DNA of 64,000 nt from Monodelphis domestica (taxonomy: Eukaryota > Chordata > Mammalia > Didelphimorphia > Didelphidae). Position numbers and translations under genes: made by a program. The notes beneath the pieces were generated by a model. It was not told the DNA's origin, ran no database searches, and was given only the letters and a program-made list of their open reading frames with translations. Location of the stretch: NCBI RefSeq assembly GCF_027887165.1, contig NC_077230.1, positions 342,544,959-342,608,958 on the forward strand. The letters are read 5' to 3'. Shown here piece after piece: positions 4,685 through 54,188 of this stretch (the stretch's first letter is position 1; every line of letters starts with the position of its first letter).

Positions 4685-5600
4685 CCGATCATCACAGAAT
4701 CTTGGAATCAGAGAATCCTAAGGTTATAGAGGCAAAGAAGCTTAGAACTGTGGAATCTTTGAGGAACAGAACCTTTGGATCTTAGAATCTCAGAATTCTA
4801 GAACCACTAACTCTCAGGCTCAGGCATTTATGAACCCTCAGAGAGATGGAATCTTAGAATCACAGAACCAAGAAGTTTTAGAATGATGGAATCATATAGC
4901 TAAAGAATCTTAGAATCATAAAACTATAGAACCACAAAACTATGGAATCTTAGAATCACAGAAATACAGAACTAAGGAATCTTAGCATCATGGACCACAG
5001 ATAAATGGAATCTTAGGATCACAGAACCAAGAAGTTTTAAAATCACGGCTCATATAACCAAGGTATCTTAGAATATTAGTGCCACATATCTATGGAATCT
5101 TAAAACTGTACAGCCACAAATTCATGAAATCTTTAGAATCATGGATTACAGATGAATGACATCTTAGAATCATAGAACTTCAAATCCAAGAAATATTGGA
5201 ATCAGAGACACAAAAACCATGAAATCTTAGAATCACAGACCCACAGAACTATGGAATTTTAGAATCACAGAATCATAGAACCTAGCCATGGAATCTCAAA
5301 GAACTATGGAAATTCATAGAATCAGGGAATCTCATGAATTCATATTTACCCAGGACCATAGAATCAAAGAATTGTGGAATCTTACCATAACAGAATCATA
5401 GAATCATGGGATCTTAGAATCATAGTACCATAAAACCACAGAATCTTAGAATCACAGAACCATGAAATCTTAGAATCACAGAATCAGAGAACCACAAAAC
5501 CATGGAATTTCACAGAAGTATGTAAACTCAGAGAACTGTGGAACTTCATGGATTTGTATACTCTCAGAATCCTAGAATCTTAGAATCACAGTGTAGCATA
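4685..5600. repeat. Degenerate minisatellite of GAATCTTAGAATCACAGAACC type
   Basis: About 0.9 kb built of irregular 20-30-bp units around 'gaatcttagaatca', 'cagaacca' and 'tatggaatcttag'. Unit length and order drift, so this is an old tandem expansion. The motif resembles the reverse complement of the THER/CR1-type tail (ATTCTATGATTCT), the probable seed. No coding potential is seen. Confidence 0.85.
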
Positions 5601-8147: not shown

Positions 8148-8548
8148 AGGCAAGGGGGGTAAGGGAAAAGGGGAGGGAAGGGGAGGGGAGGGGAGGGAAG
8201 GGGAGGGGAGGGAAGGGAAGGGAAGGGGAGGGAAGGGAAGGGAAGGGGAGGGAAGGGAAGGGAAGGGAAGGGAAGGGAAGGGGAGGGAAGGGAAGGGAAG
8301 GGGAGGGGAGGGAAGGGAAGGGGAGGGAAGGGGAGGGGAGGGGAGGGGAGGGGAGGGGAGGGGAGGGGAGGGGAGGGAAGGGAAGGGGAGGGGAGGGGAG
8401 GGAAGGGGAGGGGAGGGAAGGGAAGGGGAGGGGAGGGGAGGGGAGGGGAGGGGAGGGGAGGGGAGGGGAGGGGGAGGGGAGGGGAGGGAAGGGAAGGGAA
8501 GGGAGGGGAGGGAAGGGAAGGGAAGGGAAGGGAAGGGAAGGGAAGAAA
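8148..8548. repeat. (GGGGA)n/(GGGAA)n purine satellite
   Basis: About 400 bp of virtually pure G/A on the plus strand in two interleaved pentamers, GGGGA and GGGAA. G-runs of four at five-base spacing allow G-quadruplex or triplex structure. Both strands read open only because the pentamers lack stop codons; this is not a gene. Confidence 0.95.
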
Positions 8549-12154: not shown

Positions 12155-12545
<391 letters not shown>

Positions 12546-27094: not shown

Positions 27095-27490
27095 ACTTTT
27101 CTCCCCAATGCCCACCTTTGTATTGAAGTTACCAAGTATTAGGGAACATGTTGACTTAGTTTGGAGGATCTCATCCAGTTCTCTGTAGAATTTCTCTCCC
27201 TCCTAATCTCCTACAACAGATGTTGGCTCATGAGTTCCAATTATCTTCATGGTGGTCTTTTTGCTTAAGCTCATCATGAGAACTACAAAGCTACACAGTA
27301 AGATGACTAAGTGTCCCATGAAATGATGTTTCTGGTTACCTTCATGTGCAAAATGAAACCAGCTCTACCAACTCCCTCATTTGCTTCTTCAGGGAAAACC
27401 TGTGAGCCATCCTTCAATTTAGCTGCAACTTCCTTCTCTCTTCTGGTTTCATTTATCAGAAGAAGGTCAATATTAACATGTTTCAGTTTC
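27095..27490 (-). mobile_element. RTE LINE endonuclease-region fragment, antisense
   Basis: Reverse-translated, the stretch at about 27,107-27,140 reads L-G-N-F-N-T-K-V-G. This matches the G-D-F-N-A-K-V-G-type motif of RTE apurinic endonuclease domains with D changed to N. The flanking sequence to 27,490 is compatible with the same domain but is broken. AT-rich sequence back to about 25.7 kb may belong to the same element, split by the L1 and SINE. Confidence 0.55.
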
Positions 27491-27499
27491 TCTAGAGCT

Positions 27500-27710
27500 G
27501 GGTTTCTTAACCTTCTTTCATGTCTTGGATCCCTATGGCAGTCAATCGAGTGAAGTCTATGGATCCATTCTCAGAATGTTTTTAAATGCATAAAATAAAA
27601 CCATAAGATTACAGAGAAAATCAATTACATTGAAATATAATTATTGAAAATTTTCAAAAAAGGAAATTCATGGACCTCATGTTAAGAACCATTGCTCTAA
27701 AAGCTTATTG
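27500..27710 (+). mobile_element. hAT-Charlie MITE, MER5-like
   Basis: 'gggtttcttaaccttctttc' head, 'tttttaaatgcataaaataaaa' centre and 'catggacctcatgttaagaacc' end. The ends form a rough terminal inverted repeat (TTCTTAACC/GTTAAGAA). This is the best-preserved of the three copies here. Confidence 0.7.
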
Positions 27711-29640: not shown

Positions 29641-30226
29641 AGCTGCACTCTTTGGGGTGGCAAAAAATTAGAAAATGAGGGGATGCCCTTTAGTTGGGAA
29701 ATGGCTGAACAAATTGTGGTATATGTTGGTGATGGAATACTATTGTGCTCAAAGGAATAATAAAGTGGAGGAATTCCATGAAGACTGGAACAACCTCCAG
29801 GAAGTGATGCAGAGCGAAAGGAGCAGAACCAGGAAATCATTATACACAGAGACTGATACACTGTGGTACAATCGAATGTAATGGACTTTAGTGGCAATGC
29901 AGTGATCCTGAACAACCCGGAGGGGTCTATGTGAAAAAAACACTATCCACATCCAGAGGAAAAACTGTGGGAGTAAAAACACCAAAGGAAAACAACTGCT
30001 TGATTACATGGGTCAAGGGGGATACAGTTGGGGATGTAGACTCTGAATGATCATCCTAGTGCAAACATCAACAACATGGAAATAGGTTCTGATCAAGGAC
30101 ACATGTAAAACCCGGTGGAATTGCGCATCAGCTACAGGAAGAAGTGGGGAGGGAAAGAATATGATTCTTGTAACCAAGGAATAATGTCCTAAATTGACAA
30201 AATAAAATTTTAAAAAAAGAGAAAAA
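29641..30226 (+). mobile_element. L1 3' end, young subfamily, 5'-truncated
   Basis: 'gcactctttggggtggcaaaa', 'gttgggaaatggctgaac', 'ctccaggaagtgatgcagagcg', 'ggaattgcgcatcagc' and the final 'caaaataaaattttaaaaaa' give an almost undamaged L1 3' end. TTTATCTTCTTATATTCAG before it and TTTATCTTCTTAATATCAG after it are the target duplication. It is truncated within the ORF2 C-terminus. Confidence 0.93.
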
Positions 30227-31349: not shown

Positions 31350-31545
31350 TTTAAAAAATCCCTACCTTCTATCTTAGAATCAATATTATGAATTGGGTCT
31401 AAAATAGAAGAATGGTAAAGGCTAGGAAGTAGGGTTTAAGTAACTTGTCCAGGGAAGGTAGGAAGGGGCTGAGGCCAGATCTGAAGCCATGATCTCCCAT
31501 CTCCAAGCCTGGATCTCTATCCACTGAGATATCTAGCTCTATCTA
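31350..31545 (-). mobile_element. Marsupial tRNA-derived SINE, antisense, diverged
   Basis: 'ctaccttctatcttagaatc', 'gtttaagtaacttgtccagg' and 'ctgaggccagatctgaagcc', then 'ctatccactgagatatctagc'. This is the reversed SINE with several substitutions. Confidence 0.75.
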
Positions 31546-37215: not shown

Positions 37216-37700
37216 CTCTCTTTGTTTTAGGTTTAAATGGCTCTTTTTTTATATCATTCTATGCTTTCTAAGTTTTTCCCAGATCTAACATTCTATGTTC
37301 TAAAATTCTACTTTCAATATAATATTCTACTATAATATTATTCCTAATATAGTATTCATTGTTCTAAGGCACCAGCCAGTTCTGACATTGTATTCTAAAT
37401 CCCTTCCTATCTCTGACATTTTGTGTTTAAGGTCTCTCCCAGCTCTGGCATTTTCTGTTCTAAGATCCCTCCCAGCTCTGATATTCTCTATTCTAAGATC
37501 TCTCCCAACTCTGACATTTTCTGTTCTAAGGTCTCTCCCAGCTCTGGCATTTTCTGTTCTAAGATGTCTCCCAGCTCTGACATTTTGTGTTCTAAGGTCC
37601 CTCCCAGCTCTGGCATTTTCTGTTCTAAGATCCCTCCCAGCTCTGGCATTTTCTGTTCTAAGGTCTTTCCCAGCTCTGACATCCTGTGTCCTCAGGTTCC
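37215..37700. repeat. 33-bp minisatellite of SINE-tail type
   Basis: The left part (to about 37,385) is degenerate. From 37,420 to 37,690 there are about eight regular 33-bp units, each with 'gttctaaggtctctcccag' then 'ctctggcattttct'. Because 33 is divisible by three, three frames read open as 11-residue repeats. The motif matches the THER-type tail, so I infer a tail expansion. Not called as a gene. Confidence 0.9.
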
Positions 37701-37889
37701 TGTGTCCCTGCTAGTTCTAACCCTGCACAGTGGCCCCATGACTCCCAGTGCCTGTTCTATCATGTGACCTCCCCCCCACCCCCCTTCCTCCCCAGGATTC
37801 TCTGCCTCCTGCTCTGTGGGAGGAAAGGAGGGGCAGGAGGAGGTGGTCTCTCAGCTCTCTCTGGCTCAGCTCCTCTGTTCCCTGTTCTA

Positions 37890-38206
37890 AAGGCCTTTGG
37901 GCTCTGAGATTCTGAGATTTTCTCCTTAGGCTTCTTCCTGTCTCCCCCACCCCTAACCCAGCCTGCCTTCCACCTAGGCCGGCTTCTGGAATTAATGACC
38001 CCGTAGTCCTCATTTCCTGTCACTGGGGACTGGGGACCGGGACAGGAGGTGGCTCTGAGACAGAGGGGAGGCTGGGACCAGCCACACAGCCTCCCATTGT
38101 TTCAAGGCCCTTATCTTCGGAAGTCTCATCTGTATCTACCTGCCAGGCCCCGGAGCTAGGACCCTGGACCTAAGGCCACGGGTCCCCTTCCTGTTCCTAA
38201 ACTTAG
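37890..38206 (+). promoter_or_regulatory. Candidate promoter/5' region of the repeat-protein gene
   Basis: Repeat-free and GC-richer than its surroundings. Four ETS-type cores lie within about 260 bp: CTTCCTGT at 37,934-37,941, TTTCCTGT within 38,011-38,020, CGGAAGT at 38,118-38,124 and CTTCCTGT at 38,187-38,194. No TATA box is placed. The last 20 bases (ending CTTAG at 38,206) also resemble a 3' splice site, so this may instead be the end of an intron. Inference only. Confidence 0.35.
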
Positions 38207-38213
38207 AAACAGA

Positions 38214-41200
38214 ATGAACACGGGACAGAGGCTGACTGGGGTTCAGTCTGGGGCTAAGGACAAGGAGATGTCTGGCGTTGGGGTCCAGGCTCAGTCTGGG
38301 GGTGACCAGCAGCCTGAGTTTGTGACAGAGGCCTCAGCTCAGGCTGGGGATGGGATTGAGGCTCAGTCTGTGTCCCTCACTGGGGCTAGGGCTGGGGTAA
38401 GAGCTCAGGCTCCAGCTAAGGCCAGTGGTCAGTTTAAGACTGGGACCAGGCCTCAGGCTTTGACTAGAGCCAGTCCTAAGCCCACAGTTAGGGTTAGGGC
38501 TCCGTCTGGGGATAATACAGTGAGGGTTCCTGGAGCCAACATCCAGGGTCAGTCTGAAACCAGACTCAGGTCTCATTCTGGGGCTGAGCTTAGATCTCAG
38601 TCTGGGGATGAGGCCACAGCCCAGGTTTTGGTTGGGGTCAGAGGTCAGTCTGGGGTCGAGGGCGGGTCTCAGGCCATAGCCAATTTCAGGCCTCAGTTTG
38701 AGAATGGAGTCAGGGATCTGTCTAGGCTCAGGGTCAAGCCTCAGTCTGGGATCCACATCAGTTATAAGGATGAGGCTAGGGACAAGAATCATTCTGGGCC
38801 TTGTGTCAAAGATCAATATGGAGTCAAGGTTCAGCCCACAGACAGGGTCAGGGCTCAGTCTCTAACTGGAATCAGGCCTCACTCTGTGGTACAGGCTCAG
38901 CCTAAAGTCGGAGTTAAGGCCCAATCTGGAGTCAAGGCTCAGTCTGGGGATAAAGCTCACTCCGGGGACAGGGCTCAGCCTGAGGTCAGGGCCCAATCTA
39001 GGGCCAAGGCCCAATCTTGTGTTGGGGCCTCATCTGGGGAAAGGACTCCGTTTGGAAGCAAGATTCAGTCCAATGTTGGGGCCAGGGCTCAATCTGGGGT
39101 CAGGGCTCATTCTGGGGCTGGGGCTCAGGCTGCAGTCAGGGCTCAATCTGAAGGCAAGATTCAGTCTAGTTATAGAGTTTTGGTTCAGTCTGGGAGCAAA
39201 ACTCCATCTTATGCTGAGATAAAGCCCGAGTCTACGAATAAGATTCAGTCTAAAGTTGGGATCAAATGTCCTTCTGGGGTCAAGGTTCATTCTGATGTCA
39301 GAGTCAGGATTCAGTCTAATGTTGGGATTGAGTCCCGTTCTGGGGTTAGAGCTCATTCTGAAGTTAAAGCTCAGTCTAATGTGGGTGTCAGTCCTCAGGC
39401 TGAAGTCAGTGCTCAATCTGGGGCTCCCTCTGTGCCCAGAGATAGATCTCCCTCTGAAATCAGGGCTCAGTCTCTGGCTGGAGTCAGTGTTCAATCTGGG
39501 GCTCCCTCTGTGCCCAGAGATAGATCTCCCTCTGAAGTCAGGGCTCAGTCTCTGGCTGGAGTCAGTGTTCAATCTGGGGCTCCCTCTGTGCCCAGAGATA
39601 GATCTCCCTCTGAAGTCAGGGCTCAGTCTCCGGCTGGAGTCAGTGTTCAATCTGGGGCTCCCTCTGTGCCCAGAGATAGATCTCCCTCTGAAGTCAGGGC
39701 TCAGTCTCTGGCTGGAGTCAGTGTTCAATCTGGGGCTCCCTCTGTGCCCAGAGATAGATCTCCCTCTGAAGTCAGGGCTCAGTCTCGGGCTGGAGTCAGT
39801 GTTCAATCTGGGGCTCCCTCTGTGCCCAGAGATAGATCTCCCTCTGAGGTCAGGGCTCAGTCTCTGGCTGGAATCAGTGTTCAGTCTGGGGCTCCCTATG
39901 TGCCCAGAATTAGGTCTCGTTCTGAGGTCAGGGCTCAGTCTCTGGCTGGAGTCAGCATTCAACCTGGGGCTCCCTCTGGGCCCAGAGTTAGATCTCATTC
40001 TGAAGTCAGGGCTCAGTCTCTGGCTGGAGTCAGCATTCAATCTGGGGTTCCCTCTGTGCCTAAAGATAGATCTCGCTCTGAAGTCAGGGCTCAGTCTCTG
40101 ACTAGAGTAGATGTTCAATCAGGGGTTCCCTCTGTGCCAAGAGTTAGGTCTCACTCTGAAGTCAGGGCTCTGTCTCTTATTGGAGTCAATGCTCAATCTG
40201 GGGCTCCCTCTGTGCCCAGAATTAGGTCTCGCTCTGAAGTCAGGGCTCAGTCTCTGTCTAGAGTCGATGTTCAATCTGAGGTACCCTCTGTGCCCAGAAT
40301 TAGGTCTCAGTCTCTGACTGGAGTCAGTGTTCAATCTGGGGCTCCTTCAGTGCCAAGAGTTAGATCTCACTCTGAGGTCAGGACTTCGTCTCTTATTGGA
40401 GTCAATGCTCAATCTGGGGTTCCCTCTGTACCCAGAATTAGGTCTCGGTCTCTGACTGGGGTCAGTGTTCAATCTGGGGTTCCCTCTGTGCCAAGAGTTA
40501 GGTCCCACTCTGAGGTCAGGGCTCCGTCTCTTATTGGAGTCAATGCTCAATCTGGGGCTCCCTCTGTACCCAGAATTAGGTCTCAGTCTCTGACTGGAGT
40601 CAGTGTTCAATCTGTGCCTAGAGTTAGGTCTTACTCTGAGATCAGGGCTCAGTCTCTGACTAGAGTCAATGTTCAAACTGGGGTTCCCTCTGTGCCCAGA
40701 ATTAGGTCTCAGTCTCTGACTGGAGTCAGTGTTCAATCTGGGGTTCCCTCGGTGCCCAGAGTTAGGTCGCACTCTGAGATCAGGGCTCAGTCTCTGACTG
40801 GAGTCAATGTTCAAACTGGGGTTCCCTCTGTGCCCAGAATTAGGTCTCAGTCTCTGACTGGAGTCAGTGTTCAATCTGGGGTTCCCTCGGTGCCCAGAGT
40901 TAGGTCGCACTCTGAGATCAGGGCTCAGTCTCTGACTGGAGTCAATGTTCAATCTGGGGTTTCCTCTGTGCCAAGAGTTAGGTCTCACTCTAAGATCAGG
41001 GCTCAGTCTCTGACTGGAATCAATGTTCAATCTGGGGTTCCCTCGGTGCCAAGAGTTAGGTCTCACTCTGAAGTCAGGGCTCAGTCTCTGACTAGAACCA
41101 GTGTTCAATCTGGGGCTCCCTCTGTGCCCAGAATTAGGTCTCGCTCTGAAGTCAGGGCTCAGTCTCTGTCTAGAGTCGATGTTCAATCTGAGGCACCCTC

Positions 41201-44200
41201 TGTGCCCAGAATTAGGCCTCGGTCTCTGGCTGGAATCAGTGTTCAATCTGGGGTTCCCTCTGGGCCCAGAGATAGATCTCCCTCTGAGGTCAGAGCTCAG
41301 TCTCTGACTGGAGTCAGTGTTCAATCTGAGGCACCCTCTGTGCCCAGAATTAGGCCTCGGTCTCTGGCTGGAATCAGTGTTCAATCTGGGGTTCCCTCTG
41401 GGCCCAGAATTAGATCCCGCTCTGAGGTCAGAGCTCAGTCTCTGACTGGAGTCAGTGTTCAATCTGGGGCTCCCTCTGTGGCCAGAATTAGGTCTCGTTC
41501 TGAAGTTAGGGCTCAGTCTCCCACTGGAGTCAGTGTTCAATCTGGGGTTCCCTCTGTGCCCAGAATTAGATCTCGCTCTGAGGTCAGAGCTCCATCTCTG
41601 ACTAGAGTCAGTGTTCAATCTGGGGCTCCCTCTGGGCCTAGAGTTAGGTCTCGCTCTGAAGTCAGGGCTCAATCTCTGACTGGAGTCAGTGTTCAATCTG
41701 GGGTTCCCTCTGTACCCAGAATTAGGTCTCCCTCTGCAGTCAGGGCTCAGTCTCTGGCTCGAGTTAATGTTCAATCTGGGATTCCCTCTGGGCCCAGAAT
41801 TAGATCTCGCTCTGAGGTCAGAGCTCAGTCTCTGACTAGAACCAGTGTTCAATCTGGGGTTCCCTCTGTGCCCAGAATTAGGTCTCGCTCTGAAGTCAGG
41901 GCTCAGTCTCTGACAAGGGTCAGTGTTCCATCTGGGGCTCCCTCTATGCCTAGAATTAGGTCTTGCTTTGAAGTCAGGGCTCAGTCTCTGGCTGGAGTCA
42001 GTGTTCAATCTGGGGTTCCCTCTGTGCCTAGATTTAGATCTCACTCTGAGGGGGCTCCATGTCTGACTAGAGTCAGTGTTCGGTCTGGGCTTCCCTCTGT
42101 GCCTAGATTTAGATCTCACTCTGAGGGGGCTCCATCTCTTGCTGGAGTCAGTGTTTGGTCTGGGGTTCCCTTTGTGCCTAGAGTTAGGTCTCACTCTGAG
42201 GGGGCTCCATCTCTTGCTGGAGTCAGTGTTCGGTCTGGGCTTCCCTCTGTGCCTAGAGTTAGGTCTCACTCTGAGGGGGCTCCATCTCTTGCTGGAGTCA
42301 GTGTTTGGTCTGGGGTTCCCTTTGTGCCTAGAGTTAGGTCTCACTCTGAGGGGGCTCCGTCTCTGGCTGGAGTCAATATTCAATCTAGGGCTCCCTCTAT
42401 GCCTAGAATTAGGTCTCACTCTGCGGTCAGGGCTTCATCTCTTGCTGGAGTCAGTATTCAATCTGGGGCTCCCTCTGTGCCTAGAATTAGGTCTTACTCT
42501 GAGGTCAGAGGTCATTCTATGATGAAAGTCAATGCCCAATCTGGTGTTCATGTTGGGGCTCCTTCTGTACTTGGAGTCAGGCCTCGGACCCAGGGCAGGG
42601 CTCATTCTTTGATGGGAGACAGTGCTTGGTCTGGGATTCAGACTAGGGTTCAGTCTGGGCCCAGGGTCCAGTCTCAGGCCCTGACCAGGACCTGTTCTTT
42701 GACTGAAGTCAGTCCTCATTCTGGGATTCATCTTGAGAAGAAGTTTGTGACCAAGGCCAAGGCTCAAACCAATCTCAAAGATCACTCTGGGGCTGAGACT
42801 AAGGAGCAATCTGTGCTGGAGATCCAGGATCAGTCTGGATTGACGGCTTTATCTATGACTGGAACTGGTTCTCAGCCTGAAGCCGGGTTGGGGGTTCCAT
42901 CTATGACTGAGGCCAAGAATCAGCCTGAGAAAGATATCAGAGCTCAATCAGAAGCCAGTTCTAGGGCTCAGTCTGAAGTTAGGACTCAGCCTAGAACCCT
43001 GGCTAATGTTCAGCCTAAAGAAAGGGTCAAGGCTCAGTATGGGCTCAAGGTCCAGGCTCAATCTGAAGTCAGGACTCCGCCTAGAACCCTAGGTAGGACT
43101 CAGTTTAGAAAAGGAGTCAGGGCTCAGTCTGGAGCTAAGGTCAGGACAAAGTCTGGGCCCAGTGTCAAGTCTGGGTTCAGAGTGAAAACTAAACCTGCAG
43201 TTGGCATCAGAGCTCAGCCTGGGAAAGAAGTTAAGGAAAAATCTAAAGACAAATCTAGAGCTCAGTCTGGTTTCAGGGTCAGTAATAAATCTGAGGTAGG
43301 GAACGGGGTTCAGTATGGGGCTAGAGTGAAGGGTCAGTCTGGGGCTGGGGTGAAAACTCCTTCTGGGGCTAGAGTCAGGGCTCAGACTGGAACTGGGGTC
43401 AGAATTCAGTCTGTGGGTGGGGTGAGGGATCAGTCTATGGGTGGGGTGAGGGATCAGTCTATGGGTGGGGTGAGGGGTCAGTCTGTGAGTGGGGTGAAGG
43501 GTCAGTCTGTGGGTAGGGTGAGAGGTCAGTCTGGGGATGGGGTCAGAACTCATTCTGGGACTGGGGTGAGGGGTCAGTCTGTGGGTGGTGTGAGGGGTCA
43601 GTCTGGGGATGGGGTCAGAACTCATTCTGGGGCTGGGGTGAGGGGTCAGTCTGTGGGTGGGGTAAGGGGTCAGTCTGGGGATGGGGTAAGGGATCAGTTT
43701 GTAGGTGGGGTTAGGGGTAAGTCTGTGGGTGGGATGAGGGATCAGTCTGAGGCTGGGATCAGAACTCAGACTGGGGCTCAGTCTGTGGATAGGGTGAGGA
43801 GTCAATCTGGGGCTGGAGTCAGGGCTCAGTCTGGGGCTTGGATGAGGGGTCAGTCTGTGGGTGGAGTGAAGGGTCAGTCTAGGGCTGGAATCAGAACTCA
43901 GACCGGGGCTGGAGTGAGGGGTCAGTTTGTGGGTGGGGTGAGGGGTCAATCTGGGGATAGGGCCAGAATTAAGACTGGGGCTGGGGTGAAAGCTCAGTCT
44001 GGGGCCAGAGTCAGGGCTCAGACTGGCACTGGGGTGAGGGATCAGTCTGTGGGTGGGGTGAGGGGTCATTCTGTGGCTGGAGTGAGGGCTCAGTCTGTGA
44101 CTGGGATGAGGGCTCAGTCTGTGGCTGGGGAGAAGGCTCAGTCTGTGGCTGGGGTGAGGGCTCAGTCTGTGGCTGGGGTGAGGGTTCAGTCTGTGTCTGG

Positions 44201-46361
44201 GGTGAGGGGTCAGTCTGTGGCTAGGGTGAGGGGTCAGTCTGGGGATGGGGTGAGAGGTCAGTCTGTGGCTGGGGTGAGGGGTCAGTCTGTGGCTGGGGTG
44301 AAGAATAAGTCTGTGGCTGGGGTGAGAGCTCAGTTTGGGGCTGGGGAGAAGGCTCATTCTGGGACTGGGGTCAGACCTAAGATTGGGGTTGGGATGAGGG
44401 GTAAATCTGTGGTTGGAGTGAGGTCTCAGTCTGTGGTTGGAGTGAGGTCTCAGTCTGTGGCTGGGGAGAGGGCTCAGTCTGTGGCTGGGGAGAGGGCTCA
44501 GTCTGTGGCTGGGGAGAGGGTTCCGTCTGTGGCTGGGGAGAGGGTTCCGTCTGTGGCTGGGATCAGACCTAAGACTAGGGCTGGGGTGAGGGCTCAGTCT
44601 GGGGCTGGGGTCAGACCTAAAACTGGGGCTGGGGTGAGGGCTCAGTCTGTGGCTGGGGAGAGGGTTCAGTCTGTGGCTGGGATGAAGGGTAAATCTGTGA
44701 CTGGAGTGAGGGCTCAGTCTGTGGCTGGGATGAGGGGTCAGTCTGTGCCTGGGTTGAGGGTTCAGTCTGTGGTTGGGATGAGGGGTCAGTCTGTGACTGG
44801 GGAGAGGGCTCTGTCTGTGGCTGGGGTCAGAGCTAAGACTAGGGCTGGGGTGAAGGCTCAGTCTGTGGCTGGGTTCAGAGCTAAGACTGGGGCTGGGTTG
44901 AGGGCTCAGTCTGTGGCTGGGGAGAGGGCTCAGTCTGGGGCTGAGGAGAGGGTTCCGTCTGTGGCTGGGGAGAGGGTTATGTCTGTGGCTGGGGAGAGGG
45001 CTCAGTCTGTGGCTGGGGAGAGGGCTCAGTCTGGGGCTGAGGAGAAGGTTCCGTCTGTGGCTGGGGAGAGGGTTATGTCTGTGGCTGGGGAGAGGGTTAT
45101 GTCTGTGGCTGGGGAGAGGGCTCAGTCTGTGGCTGGGGAGAGGGCTCAGTCTGGGGCTGAGGAGAAGGTTCCGTCTGTGGCTGAGGAGAAGGTTCCGTCT
45201 GTGGCTGGGGAGAGGGTTATGTCTGTGGCTGGGGAGAGGGCTCAGTCTGTGGCTGGGGAGAGGGCTCAGTCTGTGCCTGGGGAGAGGGCTCAGTCTGTGG
45301 CTGGGGAGAGGGCTCAGTCTGTGGCTGGGGAGAGGGCTCAGTCTGTGGCTGGGGAGAGGGCTCAGTCTGTGCCTGGGGAGAGGGCTCAGTCTGTGGCTGG
45401 GGAGAGGGCTCAGTCTGTGGCTGGGGAGAGGGCTCAGTCTGTGGCTGGGGAGAGGGCTCAGTCTGTGGCTGGGGAGAGGGCTCAGTCTGTGGTTGGAGTG
45501 AGGTCTCAGTCTGTGGCTGGGGAGAGGGCTCAGTCTGTGGCTGGGGAGAGGGCTCAGTCTGTGGCTGGGGAGAGGGCTCAGTCTGTGCCTGGGGAGAGGG
45601 TTATGTCTGTGGCTGGGGAGAGGGCTCAGTCTGTGGCTGGGGAGAGGGCTCAGTCTGTGGCTGGGGAGAGGGCTCAGTCTGTGGCTGGGGAGAGGGCTCA
45701 GTCTGTGGCTGGGGAGAGGGCTCAGTCTGTGGCTGGGGAGAGGGCTCAGTCTGTGCCTGGGGAGAGGGCTCAGTCTGTGGCTGGGGAGAGGGCTCAGTCT
45801 GTGCCTGGGGAGAGGGTTATGTCTGTGGCTGGGGAGAGGGCTCAGTCTGTGGCTGGGGAGAGGGCTCAGTCTGTGGCTGGGGAGAGGGCTCAGTCTGTGG
45901 CTGGGGAGAGGGCTCAGTCTGTGGCTGGGGAGAGGGCTCAGTCTGTGGCTGGGGAGAGGGCTCAGTCTGTGGCTGGGGAGAGGGCTCAGTCTGTGGCTGG
46001 GGAGAGGGCTCAGTCTGTGCCTGGGGAGAGGGTTATGTCTGTGGCTGGGGAGAGGGCTCAGTCTGTGCCTGGGGAGAGGGCTCAGTCTGTGCCTGGGGAG
46101 AGGGTTATGTCTGTGGCTGGGGAGAGGGCTCAGTCTGTGGCTGGGGAGAGGGCTCAGTCTGTGGCTGGGGAGAGGGCTCAGTCTGTGGCTGGGGAGAGGG
46201 CTCAGTCTGTGCCTGGGGAAAGGGCTCAGTCTGTGGCTGAGGAGAGTCATTCTGTGGCTGGGGAGAGCCAATCTGTGGCTAGGGAGAGGGCTCAGTCTGT
46301 GACTGGGGAGAGGGCTCAGTCTGTGGCTGGGGTCAGACCTAAGACTGGGACTGGGGTGTAA
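38214..46361 (+). CDS. Giant tandem-repeat protein, 2,715 residues, unrecognised
   Basis: An uninterrupted 8.1-kb frame. I do not recognise the family. Residues 1-400 are loose 8-10-residue units around R-A-Q-S-G. About 403-1425 are a 26-residue (78-bp) unit, G-A-P-S-V-P-R-x-R-S-x-S-E-V-R-A-Q-S-L-x-G-V-x-V-Q-S, with shortened variants. About 1426-1710 are mixed. From 1710 to the end is an 8-residue (24-bp) unit, A-Q-S-V-A-G-E-R, with V-M and V-P variants. There is no signal peptide, membrane segment or coiled coil; Cys and aromatics are rare; the middle is Arg-rich with RS dipeptides. The protein should be disordered. The ATG has A at -3; the frame is open upstream to a stop at 38,157, and a splice-like TTAG precedes the ATG, so the true start may lie in an earlier exon. 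All unit-length changes I compared are multiples of three, which favours coding; a fortuitously open minisatellite is the alternative. Confidence 0.6.
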   Translation: MNTGQRLTGVQSGAKDKEMSGVGVQAQSGGDQQPEFVTEASAQAGDGIEAQSVSLTGARAGVRAQAPAKASGQFKTGTRPQALTRASPKPTVRVRAPSGDNTVRVPGANIQGQSETRLRSHSGAELRSQSGDEATAQVLVGVRGQSGVEGGSQAIANFRPQFENGVRDLSRLRVKPQSGIHISYKDEARDKNHSGPCVKDQYGVKVQPTDRVRAQSLTGIRPHSVVQAQPKVGVKAQSGVKAQSGDKAHSGDRAQPEVRAQSRAKAQSCVGASSGERTPFGSKIQSNVGARAQSGVRAHSGAGAQAAVRAQSEGKIQSSYRVLVQSGSKTPSYAEIKPESTNKIQSKVGIKCPSGVKVHSDVRVRIQSNVGIESRSGVRAHSEVKAQSNVGVSPQAEVSAQSGAPSVPRDRSPSEIRAQSLAGVSVQSGAPSVPRDRSPSEVRAQSLAGVSVQSGAPSVPRDRSPSEVRAQSPAGVSVQSGAPSVPRDRSPSEVRAQSLAGVSVQSGAPSVPRDRSPSEVRAQSRAGVSVQSGAPSVPRDRSPSEVRAQSLAGISVQSGAPYVPRIRSRSEVRAQSLAGVSIQPGAPSGPRVRSHSEVRAQSLAGVSIQSGVPSVPKDRSRSEVRAQSLTRVDVQSGVPSVPRVRSHSEVRALSLIGVNAQSGAPSVPRIRSRSEVRAQSLSRVDVQSEVPSVPRIRSQSLTGVSVQSGAPSVPRVRSHSEVRTSSLIGVNAQSGVPSVPRIRSRSLTGVSVQSGVPSVPRVRSHSEVRAPSLIGVNAQSGAPSVPRIRSQSLTGVSVQSVPRVRSYSEIRAQSLTRVNVQTGVPSVPRIRSQSLTGVSVQSGVPSVPRVRSHSEIRAQSLTGVNVQTGVPSVPRIRSQSLTGVSVQSGVPSVPRVRSHSEIRAQSLTGVNVQSGVSSVPRVRSHSKIRAQSLTGINVQSGVPSVPRVRSHSEVRAQSLTRTSVQSGAPSVPRIRSRSEVRAQSLSRVDVQSEAPSVPRIRPRSLAGISVQSGVPSGPRDRSPSEVRAQSLTGVSVQSEAPSVPRIRPRSLAGISVQSGVPSGPRIRSRSEVRAQSLTGVSVQSGAPSVARIRSRSEVRAQSPTGVSVQSGVPSVPRIRSRSEVRAPSLTRVSVQSGAPSGPRVRSRSEVRAQSLTGVSVQSGVPSVPRIRSPSAVRAQSLARVNVQSGIPSGPRIRSRSEVRAQSLTRTSVQSGVPSVPRIRSRSEVRAQSLTRVSVPSGAPSMPRIRSCFEVRAQSLAGVSVQSGVPSVPRFRSHSEGAPCLTRVSVRSGLPSVPRFRSHSEGAPSLAGVSVWSGVPFVPRVRSHSEGAPSLAGVSVRSGLPSVPRVRSHSEGAPSLAGVSVWSGVPFVPRVRSHSEGAPSLAGVNIQSRAPSMPRIRSHSAVRASSLAGVSIQSGAPSVPRIRSYSEVRGHSMMKVNAQSGVHVGAPSVLGVRPRTQGRAHSLMGDSAWSGIQTRVQSGPRVQSQALTRTCSLTEVSPHSGIHLEKKFVTKAKAQTNLKDHSGAETKEQSVLEIQDQSGLTALSMTGTGSQPEAGLGVPSMTEAKNQPEKDIRAQSEASSRAQSEVRTQPRTLANVQPKERVKAQYGLKVQAQSEVRTPPRTLGRTQFRKGVRAQSGAKVRTKSGPSVKSGFRVKTKPAVGIRAQPGKEVKEKSKDKSRAQSGFRVSNKSEVGNGVQYGARVKGQSGAGVKTPSGARVRAQTGTGVRIQSVGGVRDQSMGGVRDQSMGGVRGQSVSGVKGQSVGRVRGQSGDGVRTHSGTGVRGQSVGGVRGQSGDGVRTHSGAGVRGQSVGGVRGQSGDGVRDQFVGGVRGKSVGGMRDQSEAGIRTQTGAQSVDRVRSQSGAGVRAQSGAWMRGQSVGGVKGQSRAGIRTQTGAGVRGQFVGGVRGQSGDRARIKTGAGVKAQSGARVRAQTGTGVRDQSVGGVRGHSVAGVRAQSVTGMRAQSVAGEKAQSVAGVRAQSVAGVRVQSVSGVRGQSVARVRGQSGDGVRGQSVAGVRGQSVAGVKNKSVAGVRAQFGAGEKAHSGTGVRPKIGVGMRGKSVVGVRSQSVVGVRSQSVAGERAQSVAGERAQSVAGERVPSVAGERVPSVAGIRPKTRAGVRAQSGAGVRPKTGAGVRAQSVAGERVQSVAGMKGKSVTGVRAQSVAGMRGQSVPGLRVQSVVGMRGQSVTGERALSVAGVRAKTRAGVKAQSVAGFRAKTGAGLRAQSVAGERAQSGAEERVPSVAGERVMSVAGERAQSVAGERAQSGAEEKVPSVAGERVMSVAGERVMSVAGERAQSVAGERAQSGAEEKVPSVAEEKVPSVAGERVMSVAGERAQSVAGERAQSVPGERAQSVAGERAQSVAGERAQSVAGERAQSVPGERAQSVAGERAQSVAGERAQSVAGERAQSVAGERAQSVVGVRSQSVAGERAQSVAGERAQSVAGERAQSVPGERVMSVAGERAQSVAGERAQSVAGERAQSVAGERAQSVAGERAQSVAGERAQSVPGERAQSVAGERAQSVPGERVMSVAGERAQSVAGERAQSVAGERAQSVAGERAQSVAGERAQSVAGERAQSVAGERAQSVAGERAQSVPGERVMSVAGERAQSVPGERAQSVPGERVMSVAGERAQSVAGERAQSVAGERAQSVAGERAQSVPGERAQSVAEESHSVAGESQSVARERAQSVTGERAQSVAGVRPKTGTGV

Positions 46362-46758
46362 GCTTAGTCTGGGGCTGGAGTCAGGGCTCAGATAAGTCAG
46401 GTTTTAACCTGAAGAAACTCACATTGGAGCCAGTTCCACGACTCAGTCTGGGGTCAGGGACAGAACTTGGTTCATGACTGATTTTAGAGCTCAGCCTGGG
46501 GCTGGAGTCAGGGTTCAACCTAGAGAAAAGCTCAGGGCTTATTCTGGGACTGAGGTCAGGGTTCAGCCTGGAGATGGAGCCAGAGTTCACTCTGGCTGCA
46601 GGGCCAGTGGTCAGTCTCATGTTGGGGTCAAGACACAGTTTGGAGTCAGGGCTCAGTCTGAGAATAGATTCAAAGCTTTCTCTGGGTCTAGGGTCAGAGT
46701 TCCATCTGATGTCAGGAGAAATAAACAGATTAGGAACTGGGTAAACATAGGATCATAG
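46362..46758 (+). pseudogene. Repeat-family extension beyond the stop codon
   Basis: The same R-A-Q-S-G-type repeats continue after TAA (46,359-46,361). In the original frame GCT TAG TCT follows (46,362-46,370), a unit whose CAG has become TAG. After a non-repetitive patch (46,391-46,440) the repeats resume one frame over and stay open to TAG at 46,756-46,758, with units such as F-R-A-Q-P-G-A-G-V-R-V-Q-P. The last residues run into sequence that resembles a reversed THER tail. An AATAAA lies at 46,720-46,725. This is either a decayed C-terminus or a further exon joined by a short intron. Confidence 0.6.
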
Positions 46759-47545
46759 AATTAGAACTAGAAGAGACCCTGGGAAAGGGATAAGGGGTAA
46801 CTAATCTAATCTCTTTGTTTTATTGTTATTCTTTACTTATGCATTCATCTGTTTTTGTCTCTTCATTCATTTAACTGATTGATTGACTGATTTCTTCTGA
46901 TCTGGCTATCTGTGGTATAGTCCTATGATCACATCACTGTTGCTTCTCTGACTGTTGACCTTCATTAAAATGCATTCATTTTTTCCCTACCTTTGGTTCT
47001 GTGCTTTTTTTTTAATCTTTTTGGTATACAATACTACCTCATTCTCCCCTTCCCACTTCACCCCAACATCTTTCTTTCTCCCTCCTTTACCCTTTTTCCT
47101 TTTAAATAAGTTATATCCATATAATATGTACATATATACACGTATAGAATGTTTACCACCAGAAAATGTACTAAAAATAGAAAACACAACAGACACAATC
47201 TATATATACATATCTGTTTGCCTGATGATGCTTTCTATGGTGTAGAGGAGGAAAGGGAGGGGCTAAGATCCTAGAAATAAATTCTATTCATTACATTTTT
47301 TAAAAAGCTATATCATTTCAGGGTCCCATTTTAGTTATGAGTCTCATCTCACCTATGAGTCACTCATCTGAGTGACGCTTTATGAGGTCATATTTGCCTC
47401 CTTACAAATCTCTGTTTCACCCTATTTTTTACTCACATTTTAGGAATTTGCATAGACAGCCAAAGCCACAGGTTTTGAGGCTGTCTTTTTTTCTCAGATA
47501 ATAACTCCAGTTCATTATCCATCTTCTTTTCTGCTATTCTTTCAT
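46759..47545. other. 3' flank of the repeat gene, no further gene
   Basis: AT-rich, largely unassigned DNA. The first 40 bases look like a reversed THER tail. A second AATAAA lies at 47,276-47,281 and could serve as a poly(A) signal. A short frame at 46,955-47,245 is T-rich with no supporting features. Confidence 0.4.
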
Positions 47546-48564: not shown

Positions 48565-48755
48565 TGGTTAAGATTTAGAGCCAGGCCTAGAGATAAGAGG
48601 CCCTGGGTTCAAATCTGACCTAAGACACTTTCTAGCTATGTGACAGTGGGCAAGTCACTTAATCCCTTTTGCCTAGTCCTTACCACTCTTCTGCCTTAGA
48701 ACCAATACATGCTATTAATTCTAAGATAGAATGTAAGGGTTAAAAAAAAAACAAA
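48565..48755 (+). mobile_element. Marsupial tRNA-derived SINE, 5'-truncated
   Basis: The head is missing: it starts inside at 'agccaggcctagagataag' and ends 'gaatgtaagggttaaaaaaaa'. Confidence 0.88.
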
Positions 48756-53394: not shown

Positions 53395-54188
53395 AAATTA
53401 ATAAATATTGGAGGGGGTGTGGCAAAATTGGGACACTAATGCATTGCTGGTAGAGTTGTGAATTGATTTGACCATTCTGGAAGGCAACTTGGAATTATGT
53501 CCAAAGGGCCTTAAAAGACTGCCTGCCCTTTGATCCAGCCATACCACTGCTGGCTTTGTACCCCAAAGAGATAGTAGGGGAAAATACACGTACAAAAATA
53601 TTCACAGCCATGCTTTTTGTGGTGGCAAAAAAATTGGAAAATGAGAAGGTGTCCATTGATCAGGGAATGGCTGAACAAATTGTGGTATCTGATGGTGATA
53701 GAATACTACTGTACTGAAAGAAATAATGAACTGGAGGAATTCCATGTGAACAGGAAAGACCTCCAGGAATTGATGCAGAGCGAAAAGAGCAGATCCAGGA
53801 GAACATTGTACACAGAAACTGATACACTGTGGCACAATTGAATGTAATGGACTTCTCTACTAGCAGCAATGCAATGATCGAGGACAATTCTAAGGGGCTT
53901 ATAAGAAAGAAAGCTATTCATATCCAGAGAAAGAACTGTGAGAATAGAAACACAGAAGAAAAACATATGATTGATCACATTGTTCAATGGGGATATGATT
54001 GGGGATATTGACTTTAAAGGATTATAAATAATAATATGGAAATAGGTTTAAGCAATGATACATGTAAAACCCAATGGAATTACTCATTGGCTCCAGGAGG
54101 AGGGAAGGAAGAGGGGAGAGAGAAAATGAATCATGTAACCATGGAAAAATTATTCTAAATTAATTAATTAAATAAAATTTTTTTAAAA
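53395..54188 (+). mobile_element. L1 copy C: young 5'-truncated 3' end
   Basis: Starts 'aaatattggagggggtgtggc' and runs without major damage through 'ttgatccagccataccactgctgg', 'aattgatgcagagcg' and 'acccaatggaattactcattgg' to 'aattaattaattaaataaaattttt'. It is clearly less diverged than copies A and B. Confidence 0.9.

Follow-up and report, generated by a model that had tools for sequence, protein, structure and literature searches.

A very probable gene of Monodelphis domestica: a single 8.1-kb frame of nested tandem repeats

The window, a 64,000-nt stretch of the opossum Monodelphis domestica genome analysed over its whole length, contains an uninterrupted ATG-to-TAA frame of 2,715 codons in one apparent exon (Table 1). 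The product has a predicted mass of 279.5 kDa, a pI of 11.8 and a net charge of approximately +209 (summed over regions). It is rich in serine (15.7%), valine (14.4%), glycine (11.9%), arginine (11.6%), alanine (10.8%) and glutamine (8.2%), with less proline (5.7%), threonine (3.1%) and histidine (1.2%), and almost no cysteine or tryptophan. The first-pass annotation had described this frame as an unbroken single exon, as the only long frame of the window, and as encoding a protein of no recognisable family, all of which held up: its coordinates and length are exact, the longest closed frames elsewhere reach 213, 168 and 160 aa (the first two both overlapping simple arrays), and no family was found for the product. 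The coding nature it had assumed is likewise upheld as very probable by stop depletion, phase, and the start of the array near the ATG. The 8-kb frame is thus very probably a translated gene, and its product is probably a very large basic repeat protein, putatively disordered.

Table 1. Positions in the window of the open frame, its repeat blocks and flanking features
Feature	Position	Strand	Remarks
Purine-rich simple array	8168–8545		AAGGG/20-bp unit
Purine-rich simple array	12215–12544		GAAAGAAA, 41 copies at 99%
33-bp minisatellite	37376–37687		8.3 copies, 87% match; directly upstream of the probable gene; open in several frames
Possible 5′ untranslated exon part	37796–38213	+	best acceptor score within 37.7–38.26 kb, at 37796
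3-codon uORF	37995	+	inside the possible 5′ untranslated part
Acceptor-like AG	before 38207	+	inside the possible 5′ untranslated part
Open frame	38214–46361	+	ATG to TAA
Degenerate block I	38214–39387	+	diverged 6–8-mers of type GVRAQS(GV); best in-phase self-match 0.50–0.76 in 72-nt windows; as computed, aa 1–419, nt 38214–39470
26-mer block	39388–42512	+	at least 41 units of 78 nt, plus shorter in-frame variants; as computed, nt 39471–42512
Degenerate block II	42513–43346	+	aa 1434–1711; best self-match 0.56–0.82
8-mer block	43347–46358	+	~126 units of 24 nt
G-rich sense strand	43301–46361	+	58 overlapping G-quadruplex-like matches (loops 1–12); many GTGAGG donor-like sites
Hypothetical 130-nt intron	46358–46487	+	GTAAGC...TTTTAG; removal would join the frame to the tail frame
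Array continuation past the stop	46362–46740	+	degenerate; similarity to ~46735
Possible poly(A) signal	46720–46725	+	AATAAA; others at 47276 and 47913

The reading frame is open upstream of the ATG as far as 38160, and position −3 of the ATG is an A. A single coding exon would be consistent with the layout of single-coding-exon epidermal (SEDC) genes, the 5′ non-coding exon being a candidate purely by splice score; all such scores were calculated from position frequencies rather than with a trained program.

The window around the frame looks gene-poor. Outside the frame, 367 stop-to-stop pieces of at least 50 residues were scanned for families in groups of 123, 123 and 121, with low-complexity pieces excluded. 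One group of 123 pieces gave Mucin-like (1.9e-7), Apolipoprotein (5e-5), GAS (2e-4) and ApoC-I (3.3e-4), with one member each. The last three, which might have indicated an APOE/APOC locus, were judged to come from the antisense of the 33-bp minisatellite (37491–37691), which probably explains these spurious domain matches of apolipoprotein type, and the Mucin-like match was judged to come from a poly-Ser piece. No neighbour gene was identified in the window, the pieces inspected (the second and third groups in full, the first in part) appearing transposon-like or low-complexity, and there is thus no synteny. Rfam at gathering scores and a tRNA scan of the window were both empty. Open pieces at 29672–29878, 53578–53838 and 27310–27570 are presumably remnants of LINE-1 and RTE/BovB elements, which they resemble by eye, and what we take to be a marsupial-type tRNA-SINE 3′ end occurs at 48695 (+) and at 31367, 6702 and 50 (−); these four copies, including the probe itself, differ at up to 10 of 37 bases.

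Searches with the frame itself were also negative. In the protein database there was no match at E ≤ 10 to residues 1–420 (best 7,997 word-sharing candidates scored), to nt 38214–39467 (8,000 scored) or to degenerate block II (533 candidates), negatives that are weak because the vertebrate and marsupial content of the database was uncontrolled. A PDB search gave no relative, and four pattern matches in viral contigs included none. Peptide strings of the product were not found in papers, and among the matches listed by topic searches of the literature no paper is, going by its entry, about this gene. Pfam returned Gp5_trimer_C (3e-30), Fibrinogen_BP (2.5e-14) and Cornifin (0.0024), each scoring best within the homogenised 8-mer block, and all are treated as low-complexity matches.

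Three repeat regimes had been reported by the first-pass annotation, running from degenerate short units through a 26-mer to a homogenised 8-mer, with the oldest units at the N-terminus. All three regimes are present, but that description left out the second degenerate block, between the 26-mer and the 8-mer, and the array beyond the stop. The proposed age order is contradicted: degenerate units recur at residues 1434–1711 and for ~375 nt past the stop, so that old units both flank and separate the young ones. As read from the units, the growth pattern is one of young blocks nested within an old array, with no one-way gradient. Best-match identities are mostly 0.9–1.0 in the 26-mer block, where the first units (39438–39869) are among the most alike (99–100%). 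Within the 8-mer block they are 0.76–0.97 over the older first half and mostly 0.94–1.0 over the near-identical second half; exact copies of the octamer SVAGERAQ number 39. Units differ from the consensus at up to ~40% of sites. In 48-nt windows, similarity to the array first exceeds background between 38212 and 38236, within ~25 nt of the ATG, and everything upstream is at background.

The 26-mer is a composite of 8+10+8 residues, the outer segments of which match the octamer DNA at 17 and 19 of 24 nt (maxima of 14 and 16 in 5,000 shuffles), and the young 8-mer matches it at 21 of 24 positions. From these matches, a single ancestral unit seems to underlie the whole chain, the 8+10+8 composite and the homogenised octamer being later bursts. 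In the 8-mer block G strongly exceeds C on the sense strand, and the G-quadruplex-like and GTGAGG sites of that region might be a source of instability or cryptic splicing.

Substitutions were examined by aligning units in frame, building a minimum spanning tree for each regime and counting changes on its edges, with units having fewer than ~60% of columns filled omitted. Residue changes are on average about as common as the neutral expectation: 116 nonsynonymous and 61 synonymous changes in the 26-mer (119.9 and 57.1 expected under neutrality), 365 and 108 in the degenerate blocks (340.4 and 132.6), and 94 and 33 in the 8-mer block (88.6 and 38.4). Residue-changing transversions outnumber silent ones in three of the four blocks (N/S 1.93, 0.60, 1.40 and 2.36). 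Constraint on the PRxRSxSExR core of the 26-mer, which has 7 nonsynonymous changes against 31.9 expected and 28 synonymous against 14.0, was considered and rejected: the core was picked post hoc, a window permutation gave P = 0.17, and like column heterogeneity also arises in shifted and antisense frames (G 56.6–72.8 against 86.6). As the core failed these controls, no array of AKT-type or 14-3-3-type sites is claimed.

RS dipeptides, singled out earlier as potential kinase targets, are not supported as a special feature: 62 were counted, whereas 200 shuffles averaged 49.6 and reached 65. SR splicing proteins combine an RNA-recognition motif with a domain rich in such dipeptides; given this count, and with no RNA-recognition motif in the product, membership of that class was rejected. 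The R-x-x-S motif is frequent (232 against 49.8 expected), which is a consequence of the repeat unit itself.

Beyond the TAA the array stays in frame until ~46385 and is afterwards shifted by one, the change falling between ~46386 and 46410; stops in the original frame stand at 46359 and 46365. An open run of 116 codons (46408–46755) follows in the shifted frame. A second forward frame of this tail has 88 open codons and an antisense frame 123, so this openness proves little. The tail is either a cut-off C-terminus or is joined to the main frame by an intron. Of 294 frame-joining donor/acceptor pairs, the hypothetical 130-nt intron ranks seventh. Its removal would lose very little of the tail, yet both sites are weak: among those in the window, the donor is in the top 9% and the acceptor in the top 19%. 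The highest scores go to donor 46358 paired with an exon beginning at 46692 or at 46602, choices that would drop most of the tail.

A possible, if tentative, account built on these features is a lineage-specific giant protein consisting of array only. The 24-nt unit would have expanded from its own start codon, with selection for an open frame, chain length, charge and an 8-residue rhythm and for no individual residue, and the C-terminal part may be joined by an intron that is itself array-derived. It is rather unlikely that the gene, coding until recently, has begun to decay or to lose its C-terminus, with the array beyond the TAA representing its former end. The ~375 nt of array beyond the TAA, the two in-frame stops followed by a frame change, and the freely variable residues would all fit such decay, whereas the preceding 2,715 codons carry neither stop nor shift. 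The damage is also local, the shifted frame remaining open for 116 codons past ~46407, a weak argument given the 88- and 123-codon frames in the same tail.

A long frame comes easily in an array of this kind: 24 and 78 nt are multiples of three, and one stop-free unit therefore suffices. The antisense strand of the array holds frames of 1060, 690 and 362 aa, and just upstream the 33-bp array offers several open frames and largely keeps its phase. Repeats alone are consequently insufficient for calling a gene. These points, together with the near-neutral average N/S, speak for a non-coding minisatellite or repeat lncRNA, in which the long frame would be an accident of a stop-free, multiple-of-three unit. 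What makes this improbable is the fate of stop codons, along with the phase of the degenerate blocks and the beginning of the array near the ATG.

On the trees, no change to a stop occurred in the sense frame against 23.2 expected at the observed substitution rates (Poisson P ~8e-11), with 8.7, 4.3, 7.0 and 3.2 expected in the individual blocks and none seen in any; slightly different rate treatments give totals of 22.2 or 23.2. The remaining five frames gave 38 against 24.6, 106 against 61.2, 8 against 13.4 (an antisense frame with just 9 stops in its 2,715 codons, P 0.08), 94 against 38.8 and 64 against 18.3, so that significant depletion was found in the sense frame and in none of the others; since these observed counts include stop-to-sense changes and the expected ones only gains, they can be read for the lack of depletion alone. 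The tested stretch was selected for being open and ends by choice at its own stop; charging the in-frame stops at 46359 and 46365 against the 23.2 leaves P ~2.5e-8 by our own arithmetic. The estimator did not overestimate stops on simulated neutral arrays (no deletions), for which true values of 24.2, 5.0 and 3.4 were estimated as 18.2, 4.9 and 3.0, and stop-free arrays arose in 0 of 60 simulations in each of the three settings. Because the unit alignments were made on sense-frame translations, every indel in them is necessarily in frame. Sense-frame stops have not accrued as fast as they would in a neutral minisatellite, and the array shares with exon-encoded tandem repeats (exVNTRs) a multiple-of-three unit whose frame is kept beyond neutral expectation.

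Best self-matches lie at a shift divisible by three for all 337 of the 72-nt windows and for 674 of 675 48-nt windows. All 167 of the latter within the degenerate blocks are in phase (101/101 in block I and 66/66 in block II), and it is there that phase supports the frame most, because unit lengths vary. The result is otherwise weaker than it sounds, as a multiple-of-three unit keeps its phase unless an odd indel intervenes: in the fair control, the upstream 33-bp array, 20 of 22 windows are also in phase. Two further control arrays, at 5123–5502 and 8168–8545, scatter over the phases (9/11/8 and 12/9/7), as expected of a unit length not divisible by three; this makes them weak controls.

The closest kind of known protein is the exon-encoded tandem-repeat protein, and the nearest described parallel found is Laidx of the mouse, likened here by architecture and not by homology. 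In the published account, Laidx is an X-linked gene with a one-exon frame of 25,011 nt (8,337 aa), without known motif and predicted to be disordered, whose translation its authors argue from a large frame conserved in mouse and rat (PMC7263670). It is described as amplified on the sex chromosomes, with 1149- and 381-bp repeats, and testis-expressed, and a relative in a liver fluke is ascribed by the authors to horizontal transfer (PMC7263670). As described there, Laidx shares with the opossum frame the giant single exon, the internal repeats and the lack of a known motif; its units are long, whereas the opossum chain is nearly all one 24-nt repeat lineage.

Other proteins of this kind resemble the opossum frame in part. 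Mucins, ACAN and FLG are reviewed as exon-encoded variable tandem repeats (PMC12776774), and as far as that review describes them, they have in common with the opossum array a multiple-of-three unit, a preserved frame and expanding copies. They differ in that threonine and proline are low here and the array is nearly the whole protein. A mucin, with its Pro/Thr/Ser-rich repeats, was rejected on composition (Thr 3.1%, Pro 5.7%, Arg 11.6%).

Filaggrin and hornerin are encoded by a huge, basic repeat exon rich in Ser, Arg, Gln and Gly, as is the opossum product, which differs in lacking an S100 domain, in its unit of 8 or 26 residues, in being rich in Val and Ala, and in having only 1.2% His. Involucrin carries short repeats with nested younger blocks, and like other epidermal genes with a single coding exon it resembles the opossum frame in these respects. 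Involucrin is, however, described as Q/E-rich (PMC10791643), and no epidermal-type neighbours were recognised in the window. In S100-fused proteins the C-terminal part, presumably disordered, is described as reaching up to 4000 residues (PMC10791643); the N-terminal S100 that would define one was not found in the frame or among the open pieces of at least 50 residues around it, the Pfam scan of the frame giving three matches to repetitive models, none of them S100. It is very unlikely that the frame belongs to the epidermal differentiation complex as a cornification gene resembling filaggrin or involucrin. A giant single coding exon with basic S/R/Q/G-rich repeats would suit that complex, and its single-coding-exon genes are stated to have one 5′ non-coding exon (PMC10791643). 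The frame nevertheless has no S100/EF-hand domain, and its composition is, by eye, unlike the classes named in that source (PMC10791643). SEDC genes lie between S100A9 and S100A11 among similar genes, and no S100, cornifin or like family was listed for the 367 surrounding pieces (at least 50 residues).

An assembly product, in which the true array has another length or frameshifts were smoothed over by the assembler, is very unlikely: perfect runs of up to eight 24-nt units and long stretches of 100% best match are hard to assemble, yet both degenerate blocks, far from identical repeats, are equally open.

The reading preferred here, to which we assign a probability of roughly 0.6, is that of a gene whose exon grew from a 24-nt unit, whose frame, length and charge would be selected, and whose product would be a disordered polycation that packs a partner. 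An ancestral unit of 8 residues, approximately GVRAQSGA, would have been tandemly duplicated in frame, time and again, to form a coding exon, and two nested bursts would later have given rise to the 26-residue composite and the homogenised 8-residue unit. Selection would act on bulk charge, length and periodicity over exact sequence, and what is retained would be a long uninterrupted basic chain, rich in Ser, Arg and Gln, with a basophilic R-x-x-S site approximately every 8 residues. The product may be an intracellular, putatively disordered polycation, tunable by phosphorylation, whose partner for packing or cross-linking might be filaments, nucleic acid or membrane. It would act in cells undergoing terminal differentiation, of which spermatids and keratinocytes are examples; both cell type and partner are guesses.

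A review of mammalian coding repeats, in the part concerned with their expansion, states that formal neutrality tests for the absence of frameshifts are lacking (PMC12776774). A related test is offered here within one sequence, in which degenerate units supply the divergence and the other frames the controls. The absence of stop changes where 23.2 were expected, alongside residues that vary almost neutrally, allows ‘the frame is selected’ to be told apart from ‘the sequence is selected’. If the gene is expressed, a mammalian lineage would possess an orphan protein of very large size and without assigned function.
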